64,000 bases of DNA, from positions 164,527 through 228,526 of the forward strand of contig NZ_LMDJ01000012.1 of the NCBI RefSeq assembly GCF_001425045.1, given 5' to 3'. This DNA is from Massilia sp. Root351 (GTDB lineage: Bacteria > Pseudomonadota > Gammaproteobacteria > Burkholderiales > Burkholderiaceae_D). Position 1 is the first letter of the stretch, and each line of letters starts with the position of its first letter. The notes below the pieces were generated by a model that ran no database searches, was not told the DNA's origin, and saw only the letters and a program-made list of their open reading frames with translations. The position numbers and the translations under genes were made by a program. Shown piece by piece: positions 31,848-53,665 of the stretch.

Positions 31848-33023
31848 ATGCCCATCATCGCCCTGCCCCTGCCTCGCGAAACCTACGACGCGCCCTGGAA
31901 AGGCGCACTGGCCGCGTATTTCCAGGAGTTTATGGCGTTTTATTTCCCGGACATGGGTAACGCCATCGACTGGCTGCGCCCGCCTGTGTTCCTGGACAAG
32001 GAGCTCCCCCAGGTCACGCGCGACGCCGCGCTCGGCACGCGGCTGGCGGACCATCTGGTGCAGATCCATACCGGGGACGGCAACAAGCAATGGATGCTGA
32101 TCCATATCGAAGTGCAGGCGCAGCAAGACTGCACCCTGCCAGAACGCATGTATGTCTACCAATACCGCATTTACGACCGCTTCCGGCACCCGGTAGCCTG
32201 CCTGGTCGTGCTGGCCGATCGCGCCCGCCGCTGGCGGCCGTCCAGTTTCAGTTACCGGTGGCACGGCTGCGGTGCGCGGGTGGACTTCCGTTGCGTCAAG
32301 CTGCGGGACTACGCGCGCCGGGTCGAGCAACTGCAGACCCAAGACAATGCCTTCGCCCTGCTCACCGCAGCCCACCTGCTTACCCAGCAGACCCGCGGCC
32401 AGCCGCAGCAGCGCCACGCCGCCAAATGGAAGCTCGCACGCTTGCTGTTCGCGCGTGACTGGGACCGTCAGCGTGTCATAAACTTATTTCATGTCATAGA
32501 CTGGATCATGCGTCTTCCCAAGGAGCTTGAAGACCAACTGTGGCAGGACATCATCGATTTGGAAGGGAGAAAAGCCATGGATACTTACGTCCCGCGCGGC
32601 GCAAGAATTGCGATGATGCGCGAATTGAACGAAGCGCGCGAGAAAGCACAGAGAGAGGGCTGGCTGGAAGGACAGCAGAAAGGCTGGCAGGAGGGCAAGC
32701 TGAAGGGCTGGGAGGAAGGACAGGCCCAAGGCCGGCAGCAAGGGCTGTTTGATGGCCTGCTTGAGGGCCGTCAGGAGGGTCGCCTGGAGGGTCGTCAGGA
32801 GGGTCGTCAGGAGGGCCGTCAGGAGGGCCGTCAGGAAGGACTGGCCGACGGGTTACGGCTCGGCCAGGCAGCGCTGCTTGCCAGGCTGCTGGCAAAGCGC
32901 TTCGGCACACTACCGGAGGACGTCAGCGCGCGGATCCGCGCGGCCAGCCTCGATGAGCTGCAGGCATGGGCCGAGGCCGCACTGGACGCCGGTACGCTTG
33001 ACGAGGTGCTGCCTCGCCACTGA
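31848..33023 (+). CDS. Rpn-family PD-(D/E)XK nuclease (putative anti-phage toxin, RpnL-like)
   Basis: The 391-residue protein has an N-terminal Rpn/YhgA-like nuclease domain with D68 (RLADHLVQIH) and E88-V-Q90 (MLIHIEVQAQ) as catalytic residues. Residues about 270-343 are a run of tetrapeptides each starting with Gly, including six GRQE/GRLE copies, and the end (345-388) is a DUF4351-like helical domain (LAKRFGTLPEDVSARIRAAS). Rpn proteins cleave DNA and have been linked to phage defence, with a shorter product from an internal start acting as antitoxin. An internal start with a good ribosome site lies at 32577. The gene stands alone, divergent from carA. Confidence 0.9.
   Translation: MPIIALPLPRETYDAPWKGALAAYFQEFMAFYFPDMGNAIDWLRPPVFLDKELPQVTRDAALGTRLADHLVQIHTGDGNKQWMLIHIEVQAQQDCTLPERMYVYQYRIYDRFRHPVACLVVLADRARRWRPSSFSYRWHGCGARVDFRCVKLRDYARRVEQLQTQDNAFALLTAAHLLTQQTRGQPQQRHAAKWKLARLLFARDWDRQRVINLFHVIDWIMRLPKELEDQLWQDIIDLEGRKAMDTYVPRGARIAMMRELNEAREKAQREGWLEGQQKGWQEGKLKGWEEGQAQGRQQGLFDGLLEGRQEGRLEGRQEGRQEGRQEGRQEGLADGLRLGQAALLARLLAKRFGTLPEDVSARIRAASLDELQAWAEAALDAGTLDEVLPRH
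32577..33023 (+). CDS. Candidate internally started Rpn C-terminal protein (RpnS-like antitoxin)
   Basis: An in-frame ATG (codon 244 of the Rpn gene) begins MDTYVPRGARIAMMRELNEA. AGGGAG (32564-32569) precedes it by seven bases, better than the site of the full-length start. The product would be 148 residues: a charged helix, the Gly-x-x-x repeat region and the DUF4351-like domain, without the nuclease domain. In studied E. coli Rpn genes, an internally started C-terminal product with four-residue repeats binds and blocks the full-length toxin. That this start is used here is an inference. Confidence 0.6.
   Translation: MDTYVPRGARIAMMRELNEAREKAQREGWLEGQQKGWQEGKLKGWEEGQAQGRQQGLFDGLLEGRQEGRLEGRQEGRQEGRQEGRQEGLADGLRLGQAALLARLLAKRFGTLPEDVSARIRAASLDELQAWAEAALDAGTLDEVLPRH
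32766..32837 (+). repeat. Six tandem 12-bp repeats in the Rpn gene
   Basis: Six consecutive units of the form GGYCGTCAGGAG (the second is GGTCGCCTGGAG, the last ends GGAA) encode GRQE, GRLE, GRQE, GRQE, GRQE, GRQE. The unit is a multiple of three, so slippage changes the number of tetrapeptides without breaking the frame. It lies inside a longer stretch of 18 Gly-x-x-x units. Confidence 0.95.
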
Positions 33024-52540: not shown

Positions 52541-53665
52541 TCAGGCCCGGCCGGCATGGGCCGCTTTCGCCAGGCACAGGTCGGACCATGCCCTGGCCTT
52601 GTCCGCCGGCTTGCGCAGCAGGTCGGCCGGGTGGTAGGTGGCAATGGTGGGAATGCCGTCGTAGCGCAGCACCTTGCCGCGCGCGGCGGCGCCCAGCAAG
52701 CCTTTGCCGGCCGTGTGGCCCAGCGTGAGGATCATGCGGCTGCCGGCCAGCTCCAGCTCGCGCTGCAGGTAGGGCCGGCACGCCGCCAGCTGCTCGGGCG
52801 TAGGCAGGCTGTCGCTGCCGTCCGGCGCGGCCGGCGGGCGGCATTTCACCAGCGTGGTGACGTAGGCGTCTTCGTCCGGCGTGAGCGCAATGGCTTTCAG
52901 CATATTGTCCAGCAACTGGCCCGCTGCGCCGGCGATGGCGCGCACTTCCTGCTCGTCCGCAGCGGCGGGCGCGGTGCCCAGCACCAGCCACTGCGCGTGC
53001 GGGTCGCCGCGTCCGGGCACGGCGGCCTGGCGGCTGTGGCACAAGTCGCAGCGGGTGCAGGTGCTGACGGCAGCCTGCAGCGCGGTCCAGTCCATGTCGG
53101 CGATCTGCTGGCCGGCCTGCTGCGCGCGGGCCGAGCCGGGCGCCGGGGTCGCGGCCGGCATCGGCACGTCGTCGAACCAGGCAGTCGATTCCGGCTCCTC
53201 CGCGCCTGCGGCGGGCGGACGCGCCGGCGCCGCCTGCACTGGCTTGGCGGGCGATTTGGTAACCACCGGTGGCGGCGTGGCCGGCACGGGGGCATCGTCG
53301 AACCAGGCCGTGTCGTCGCTCGCGGCGGCGCCTGGGGCGGGGCGTGCGGCGGCTGGCTGCGCGGCGGGCCGCTGAGCGGCAGGCGGCAGCGCGGCGGCTG
53401 GCTGCGCCGGGGCTGGCTGCGCGGCGGGCGGCTGCACGGTGCGAAGCCCGGGCGCCTGCGCGGGCGCCTCATGCCGGGCTGCGGCAGGCTCGTGCGCGGC
53501 GTACGCCGACATGACCGCAGCGGCCAGGTCAACCGGTTCAGCGGTTTCAGCGGCCCCGGCAACATCGTTGCCGGCATGGGGCTCGGCAGCGCCCGGCGCG
53601 GCATTGCGCAAGCGCCATTGCACGCCCACGCCGATCTCCTGCAGGAACACTTCATTGCGGTTCAT
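52541..53665 (-). CDS. Family-4-like uracil-DNA glycosylase with long N-terminal linker
   Basis: The 374-residue protein has a 190-residue Ala/Pro-rich N-terminus with two copies of TAWFDD-x-P-x-PA (119-129 and 161-171), then a uracil-DNA glycosylase domain. Its Fe-S cysteines are among C203, C206, C209, C275 and C296; the HPADLLR motif is at 345-351. Motif A, normally GEAPG, reads GTAPA (230-234), and the following residues are ADEQEVRA, so catalytic strength is uncertain. It excises uracil from DNA in known relatives. The ATG overlaps the rimI stop by four bases. Confidence 0.88.
   Translation of the reverse strand: MNRNEVFLQEIGVGVQWRLRNAAPGAAEPHAGNDVAGAAETAEPVDLAAAVMSAYAAHEPAAARHEAPAQAPGLRTVQPPAAQPAPAQPAAALPPAAQRPAAQPAAARPAPGAAASDDTAWFDDAPVPATPPPVVTKSPAKPVQAAPARPPAAGAEEPESTAWFDDVPMPAATPAPGSARAQQAGQQIADMDWTALQAAVSTCTRCDLCHSRQAAVPGRGDPHAQWLVLGTAPAAADEQEVRAIAGAAGQLLDNMLKAIALTPDEDAYVTTLVKCRPPAAPDGSDSLPTPEQLAACRPYLQRELELAGSRMILTLGHTAGKGLLGAAARGKVLRYDGIPTIATYHPADLLRKPADKARAWSDLCLAKAAHAGRA

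Follow-up and report, generated by a model that had tools for sequence, protein, structure and literature searches.

The gene at positions 31848 to 33023 of the window (the whole 64,000-nucleotide stretch of Massilia sp. Root351 DNA that we analysed; the gene and its parts lie on the forward strand) raises the question of whether a single reading frame could supply both a nuclease that harms the cell and the protein that holds it in check. A sequence-only reading had taken it for an Rpn nuclease gene with an internal start and tandem four-residue repeats, and had likened it to the gene-within-gene toxin-antitoxins of Escherichia coli. In the work of Zhong et al. (PMC10327210), the E. coli case is described as the first antitoxin characterised as encoded within its toxin's gene: the small Rpn proteins were detected by tagging, RpnS blocks RpnL, the small proteins of RpnA, RpnB and RpnP2 counter their full-length proteins, a C. 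difficile gene likewise makes a small protein, and RpnS, when separately encoded in some species, goes by the name DUF4351. Our literature search yielded one study of Rpn internal antitoxins, that article, besides a few papers containing the phrase 'intragenic antitoxin'; most subscription journals lay outside its scope, and later work may exist.

The intact reading frame encodes a 391-aa, 45.3-kDa protein that we describe as full-length, RpnL-like or Rpn-like. Its N-terminal part (residues 1-243, 31848..32576) is a PD-(D/E)XK-type nuclease domain in which the proposed motif, D68, E88 and Q90, is intact, and R100 and D14 accompany it. An in-frame ATG at 32577-32579 follows the Shine-Dalgarno sequence AGGGAG (32564..32569) after a gap of seven nucleotides, exactly where the sequence-only reading had placed both, and the internal reading frame that it opens (32577..33023) has a predicted RpnS-like product of 148 aa and 16.5 kDa, in agreement with the earlier figure of about 16 kDa. 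The run of 18 four-residue units with Gly at every fourth residue was also found as described (32658..32873; 17 units to 32861, then GQAA). Within it lies the 12-bp tandem array (32763..32836; 6.2 copies with 90% matches according to TRF), whose six repeats were said all to encode GRQE; the number stands, and the units encode five GRQE and one GRLE. The DUF4351 domain closes the protein (residues 325-386, 32820..33005; Pfam E 7.4e-11, 42.4 bits, cut-off 25). Yae1_N matches over the repeats lie just above the Pfam cut-off; matches to the flagellar protein FliH, far below cut-off and over the Gly-repeat stretch, were rejected as an effect of composition, and a sequence search of solved structures with the window protein returned repeat or chance matches only. 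Elsewhere in the window, a second tandem array, whose unit is 15 bp (30- and 45-bp units were also called; scores 102-130), occupies 53346-53439, inside a reading frame on the reverse strand (52897-53655).

The relationship of this protein to the canonical Rpn nucleases was assessed with curated models and profile comparisons. The window protein does not reach the cut-off of TIGR01784 (14.3 bits vs 52.1) or of PF04754 (Rpn nuclease, 'Transposase_31'; 13.1 bits vs 21); we therefore class the gene with the known gene-within-gene systems, as a divergent representative of DUF4351 type. The earlier assignment is supported by the internal start and by the DUF4351 C-terminus found here, and falls short at the curated Rpn models. 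Among our 82 aligned sequences, 49 match TIGR01784 at E 0.01 or better (best 5.6e-9) and 24 match PF04754 at the same level. Alignment of the 82-sequence profile with the four E. coli Rpn proteins by hhalign gave E 2e-4 at a probability of only 46%, and it pairs D68, E88, Q90 and R100 with RpnA D63, E82, Q84 and R94, residues that were probed by mutation (PMC5350276); the N-domain alone gave E 6.6e-4 (probability 27%) and the tail after the repeats E 0.0017 (16%). By eye, D14 perhaps corresponds to RpnA D11. The four paired residues are invariant in all 55 full-length homologues, D14 is present in 54 of them, and residues 11-243 are under purifying selection (dN/dS 0.10 and 0.16 in comparisons with two syntenic orthologues). 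A PF12784 search of the Root351 genome was silent, as was its control, and is therefore uninformative.

Like E. coli RpnA, RpnB, RpnC and RpnE (YhgA-like), the window gene has aligning catalytic D, E-x-Q and R residues, an internal Met shortly before units with Gly at every fourth residue, a stronger ribosome-binding site at the internal than at the main start, and a repeat number that varies. Unlike them, besides falling below the TIGR01784 and PF04754 cut-offs, it encodes a longer protein (391 vs 292-300 aa) and a longer small product (148 vs 49-59 aa), and its first Gly unit begins 27 residues after the internal Met, compared with the 8-20 given in PMC10327210. It shares its family with DUF4351 (PF14261) proteins of Massilia, Duganella, Rugamonas and cyanobacteria, with 40-87% identity among the matches listed; some of these relatives are annotated as cytosolic protein or transposase, and those tested share the internal start signature described below. 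Stand-alone DUF4351 genes (a separately encoded RpnS according to Zhong et al.) have the C-terminal domain in common with the window gene, where it sits inside a nuclease gene.

Special attention was given to the conservation of the internal start, for which the test set comprised all 55 full-length homologues; 27 partial reading frames were dropped beforehand, two partial matches (G002:C14:134-682 and G011:C15:82222-82563) were not fetched, and L116 was fetched and left unused. The column of M244 holds Met in 49 homologues, Leu in five and Val in one (GTG, from a Chlorobiaceae MAG). In the five Leu genes, an ATG that carries a ribosome-binding site of its own lies 1, 1, 17, 17 or 21 codons upstream, and in L049, whose column residue is Met, the favourable site belongs to an ATG four codons upstream; it is important to note that these six shifted sites were chosen for their strength, because the scan, from 24 codons before to two codons after the column, kept the best ATG in its range. 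Predicted pairing at the internal site is -5 kcal/mol or better in 54 of the 55 genes, the weakest being L024 at -4.4. In the window gene, the ATG at 32577 has the strongest predicted Shine-Dalgarno pairing among 18 in-frame ATG, GTG and TTG codons (-8.4 kcal/mol, vs -2.0 at the annotated start). Pairing of this strength or better occurs at 26 of the 49 Met-column codons vs five of 441 other in-frame ATGs of the 55 homologues, counted from codon 21 on, which is not a chance outcome.

The pairing was also compared with a null in which synonymous codons are shuffled within each gene and the protein is kept. Shine-Dalgarno strength exceeds this null in the 55 genes together (z -11.2; stronger in 50) and in the 49 genes with ATG at the column (z -11.6), and the same test gives no signal at other Met codons, either upstream (z 0.07, 336 codons) or downstream (z 1.18, 105 codons). 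These z values are inflated by related sequences, so one gene was taken per 50%-identity cluster: of 12 clusters, nine have ATG, and all nine are stronger than the null (z -5.65). Taken alone, the window gene does not differ significantly from the null (p 0.466), because the residues E-G-R already dictate its site; two of its orthologues, L039 and L040, reach significance individually (p 0.004 and p 0.008). Separately, the Shine-Dalgarno-like hexamer AGGAGG occurs five times in the repeat stretch 32689-32826 (at 32689, 32773, 32797, 32809 and 32821), with no ATG, GTG or TTG within the 14 bases that follow each copy; ribosome pausing at these copies is possible.

Other marks of translation initiation coincide with the same place. 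AT-richness at synonymous positions is highest at residues 245-252 (z 9.3 in 53 GC-rich sequences), and the 60 nt of RNA around the internal start have weaker predicted structure than expected under the null (z 6.28; 43 of 55). Structure is also weaker 30 codons downstream of the start (z 3.54), stronger than the null at two upstream positions (z -4.72 and -3.08) and near zero at two further ones (z -1.38 and -0.36), so that the internal start is the largest, though not the sole, structural departure among the positions tested. If the full-length start is assumed to be the ATG nearest upstream of D14, mean pairing is -8.97 kcal/mol at the internal start vs -1.62 at the full-length start, with the internal one stronger in 55 of 55 genes; when the strongest candidate full-length start of each gene is taken instead, the internal one still exceeds it in 54 of 55, L057 being the exception. 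The internal site is the stronger one in E. coli rpnA, B, C and E too (-8.5 to -10.8 vs -3.5 to -8.0). The conserved start codon, the selected ribosome-binding site, the AT-rich and weakly structured region and the weak full-length start give strong comparative support to use of the internal start, which the sequence-only reading had put forward for this organism as an inference.

A possible internal promoter lies upstream of the internal ATG (32455..32484), with a -35-like GTGACT (32455-32460), a gap of 18 nt and a -10-like TAAACT (32479-32484) 98 nt before 32577. With sigma-70 weights, the promoter-like score of the homologues exceeds the synonymous null between codons -50 and -20 before the start (z 4.39; 14 windows scanned); the same scan gives z 2.90 for -30 to 0 and z 5.40 for -10 to 20, and one window farther upstream falls below the null (z -3.38). 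Under a stricter, local-shuffling null applied to eight windows, -50 to -20 alone stands out (z 3.4), -40 to -10 has z 2.08, and the other six range from -1.14 to 1.18. The commonest distances from the -10-like element to the ATG are 103 nt (15 of 53 genes), 73 nt (seven) and 98 nt (six), and the rare codons ATA, TTA and ATA of the promoter-like region are kept in two syntenic orthologues. These observations are suggestive of an internal promoter; E. coli rpn genes possess internal transcription starts (PMC10327210).

The repeats vary by whole units. Across the 55 homologues the number of Gly units ranges from 2 to 18, and six close homologues have 15, 16, 17, 17, 17 and 21 units before an identical GQAALL, with lengths of 383, 387, 391, 391, 391 and 407 aa. 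The proteins of 407, 387 and 383 aa have gained or lost complete four-residue units relative to the length of 391, and the three of 391 aa differ in the units themselves. The three orthologues found between carA and glcG, together with P0001-P0003, stand at the long end of the range (15-21 units before GQAALL). Such repeat variation alters RpnL-RpnS pairing in E. coli RpnC (PMC10327210). Among the partial reading frames, a non-random sample of degraded copies, eight have a broken or missing nuclease part (L004, L026, L028, L043, L072, L073, L074 and L076) and keep the internal start (pairing -7.9 or better) and the C-terminal part; in L005, L070, L071 and L077 the internal start or C-terminal part is not kept. 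The eight are possible orphan antitoxins, although their pattern is merely consistent with an inhibitor that is safe alone, because damage to the C-terminus would hit both proteins. Six further partial matches (L010, L068, L069, L075, L078 and L079) resemble a second Rpn-like subfamily within the genus; they carry Gly repeats at the C-terminus, and an ATG with pairing of -6.9 to -11.2 lies about 100-145 codons from their end.

Our study also examined where the gene resides. Matches occur in 20 of 41 searched genomes (Root351 itself, 19 of 24 others of the genus and none of 16 others of the order), and the Root351 genome holds three full-length open copies (100, 55 and 45% identity) along with remnants. 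In the close relatives Massilia sp. Root418 (87%) and Pseudoduganella aquatica (79%), the gene lies between carA and an HbpS/GlcG-like gene, as in the window. An empty-site comparison covered 30 loci (our own included) of 60 genomes with glcG: the 29 other loci of the genus with a glcG-like gene show no rpn match in the stretch compared, and carA lies within the 1.5-kb flank in 24 of them. The gene is thus present or absent at one chromosomal place, carA-glcG. Pfam analysis of 16 neighbours (22.9-41.1 kb) returned what look like housekeeping or phosphate-uptake genes, the nearest being carA, carB, GreA, FtsJ and FtsH on one side and the HbpS/GlcG-like gene, a patatin, PhoR and a response regulator, PhoU and phosphate-type transporter genes on the other. 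PADLOC has no match for the window protein itself; its matches to ten neighbouring genes, among them FtsH to IetA, FtsJ to mad2, patatin to a phospholipase effector and the histidine kinase to PDC-M43B, are read as shared domains and not as defence, and the patatin gene is present in all 29 other loci of the genus. No relatives were found in 50,697 phage records or in an IMG/VR scan with two peptide patterns. The defence framing of the sequence-only reading is weakened here, since the neighbours scanned resemble housekeeping genes and no defence island is visible.

Considering these results together, we put at about 0.72 the probability that the window gene is a divergent, DUF4351-type Rpn-like gene making two proteins, a toxin-antitoxin like RpnL-RpnS. 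Under this explanation, the weak start at 31848 would yield the full-length nuclease, which would cut DNA without much specificity and harm the cell, and the strong internal start at 32577 would yield the 148-aa C-terminal protein, consisting of the repeat helix plus DUF4351. This shorter product would pair with the matching region of the full-length one and keep the nuclease inactive, the number and order of the four-residue units would decide which partners recognise each other, and release of the nuclease, perhaps upon phage infection, would lead to damage of phage or host DNA. The sequences themselves show the anatomy, the conserved and selected internal initiation site, the variation by whole repeat units, the purifying selection on the nuclease domain and the presence or absence of the gene at one chromosomal place; that the small protein is translated, that it inhibits a toxic nuclease and that the pair defends against phages is in this account taken over from the E. 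coli work by analogy.

Three other explanations deserve consideration. The internal start might be used to make a helper of the nuclease, an accessory subunit or a regulator, instead of its antitoxin, since the initiation evidence shows no more than that there is a second product, and Cas11d for Cas10d is such a case (described in PMC10327210). We consider this unlikely: the small proteins of E. coli RpnA, RpnB and RpnP2 act against the full-length ones, a strong internal start beside a weak full-length start suits an excess of inhibitor, and the eight degraded copies retain the internal start and the C-terminal part without an intact nuclease part. The gene might also be mainly a recombination or mobility nuclease for which defence is incidental, a notion that draws on the name transposase borne by some relatives, on the increase of RecA-independent recombination by E. 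coli Rpn reported in PMC5350276, and on the patchy presence at carA-glcG. This we find quite improbable, given that the position between carA and glcG is identical in three genomes, the window's included, and that Zhong et al. see no terminal repeats or target duplications and deem transposition highly unlikely (PMC10327210).

Finally, there may be no internal translation at all, and constraints on the protein alone may have conserved the Met and the purine-rich codons that precede it. Taken in isolation, the window gene would allow this (p 0.47), and E-G-R or K-E residues favour purine-rich codons. However, the null that fixes the protein is still exceeded in the full set and in the clusters (z -11.2 and -5.65), the five Leu-column genes have an upstream ATG (1-21 codons) with its own ribosome-binding site, and low structure and AT-richness coincide at the start, which together make this last explanation very improbable indeed.

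How far the signature extends was addressed with cyanobacterial and canonical genes. Ten of 54 cyanobacterial plasmid records were used, and these relatives have Met at the column in all ten cases, with pairing stronger than the null in nine (z -4.03) and stronger at the internal site than at the annotated full-length start in ten of ten. On the Synechococcus elongatus IITB7 plasmid pIITB7_1 (L151), the DUF4351/Rpn-like relative (CDS 1486-2445) adjoins the DISARM gene drmA, a defence neighbour, and a separate 49-aa DUF4351 CDS downstream (2566-2715) is a candidate separate partial copy; on the cyanobacterial plasmids L147, L148 and L155 a convergent gene for an MT-A70 methyltransferase comes next. 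For canonical TIGR01784 genes, 200 genomes of the phylum were searched, 49 of which had a match; 30 loci were taken, of which 29 were used (L134, below 700 nt, was dropped), plus the four E. coli genes. Seven genes that are E. coli-like by sequence (three loci and the four of E. coli) all have Met at the RpnA-M244 column, compared with one of the other 26. The 84 C-terminal ATGs of those 26 genes show no excess of ribosome-binding sites (z 1.15); against this, some ATG, GTG or TTG within the last 40-170 codons has pairing of -6 or better in 15 of the 26, as a raw count. A Met column near the N-terminus of the same alignment does show an excess (z -3.55; 12 of 15), which indicates that the test can work there.

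These comparisons suggest that the internal start may be a lineage trait among Rpn genes. We advance tentatively, at somewhat under even odds, a wider proposal: that the DUF4351-type lineage, from Massilia-like bacteria to cyanobacterial plasmids, would be a one-gene toxin-antitoxin with a main start that has hardly any ribosome-binding site, a strongly selected internal start and, roughly 100 nt ahead of the latter, an internal promoter giving the inhibitor its own transcript. Because the 26 canonical Rpn genes unlike those of E. coli show no selected site at their C-terminal ATGs, such wiring would characterise particular Rpn lineages, not the superfamily as a whole.

Our analysis provides a way to test for internal starts from sequence alone, with no experiment required, and the internal-start signature is now seen in a large and poorly named family. 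The results suggest that an inhibitor of their own is encoded by some Rpn-like lineages and not by others, and proteins now named transposase, cytosolic protein or DUF4351 could be reinterpreted as self-inhibited nucleases.
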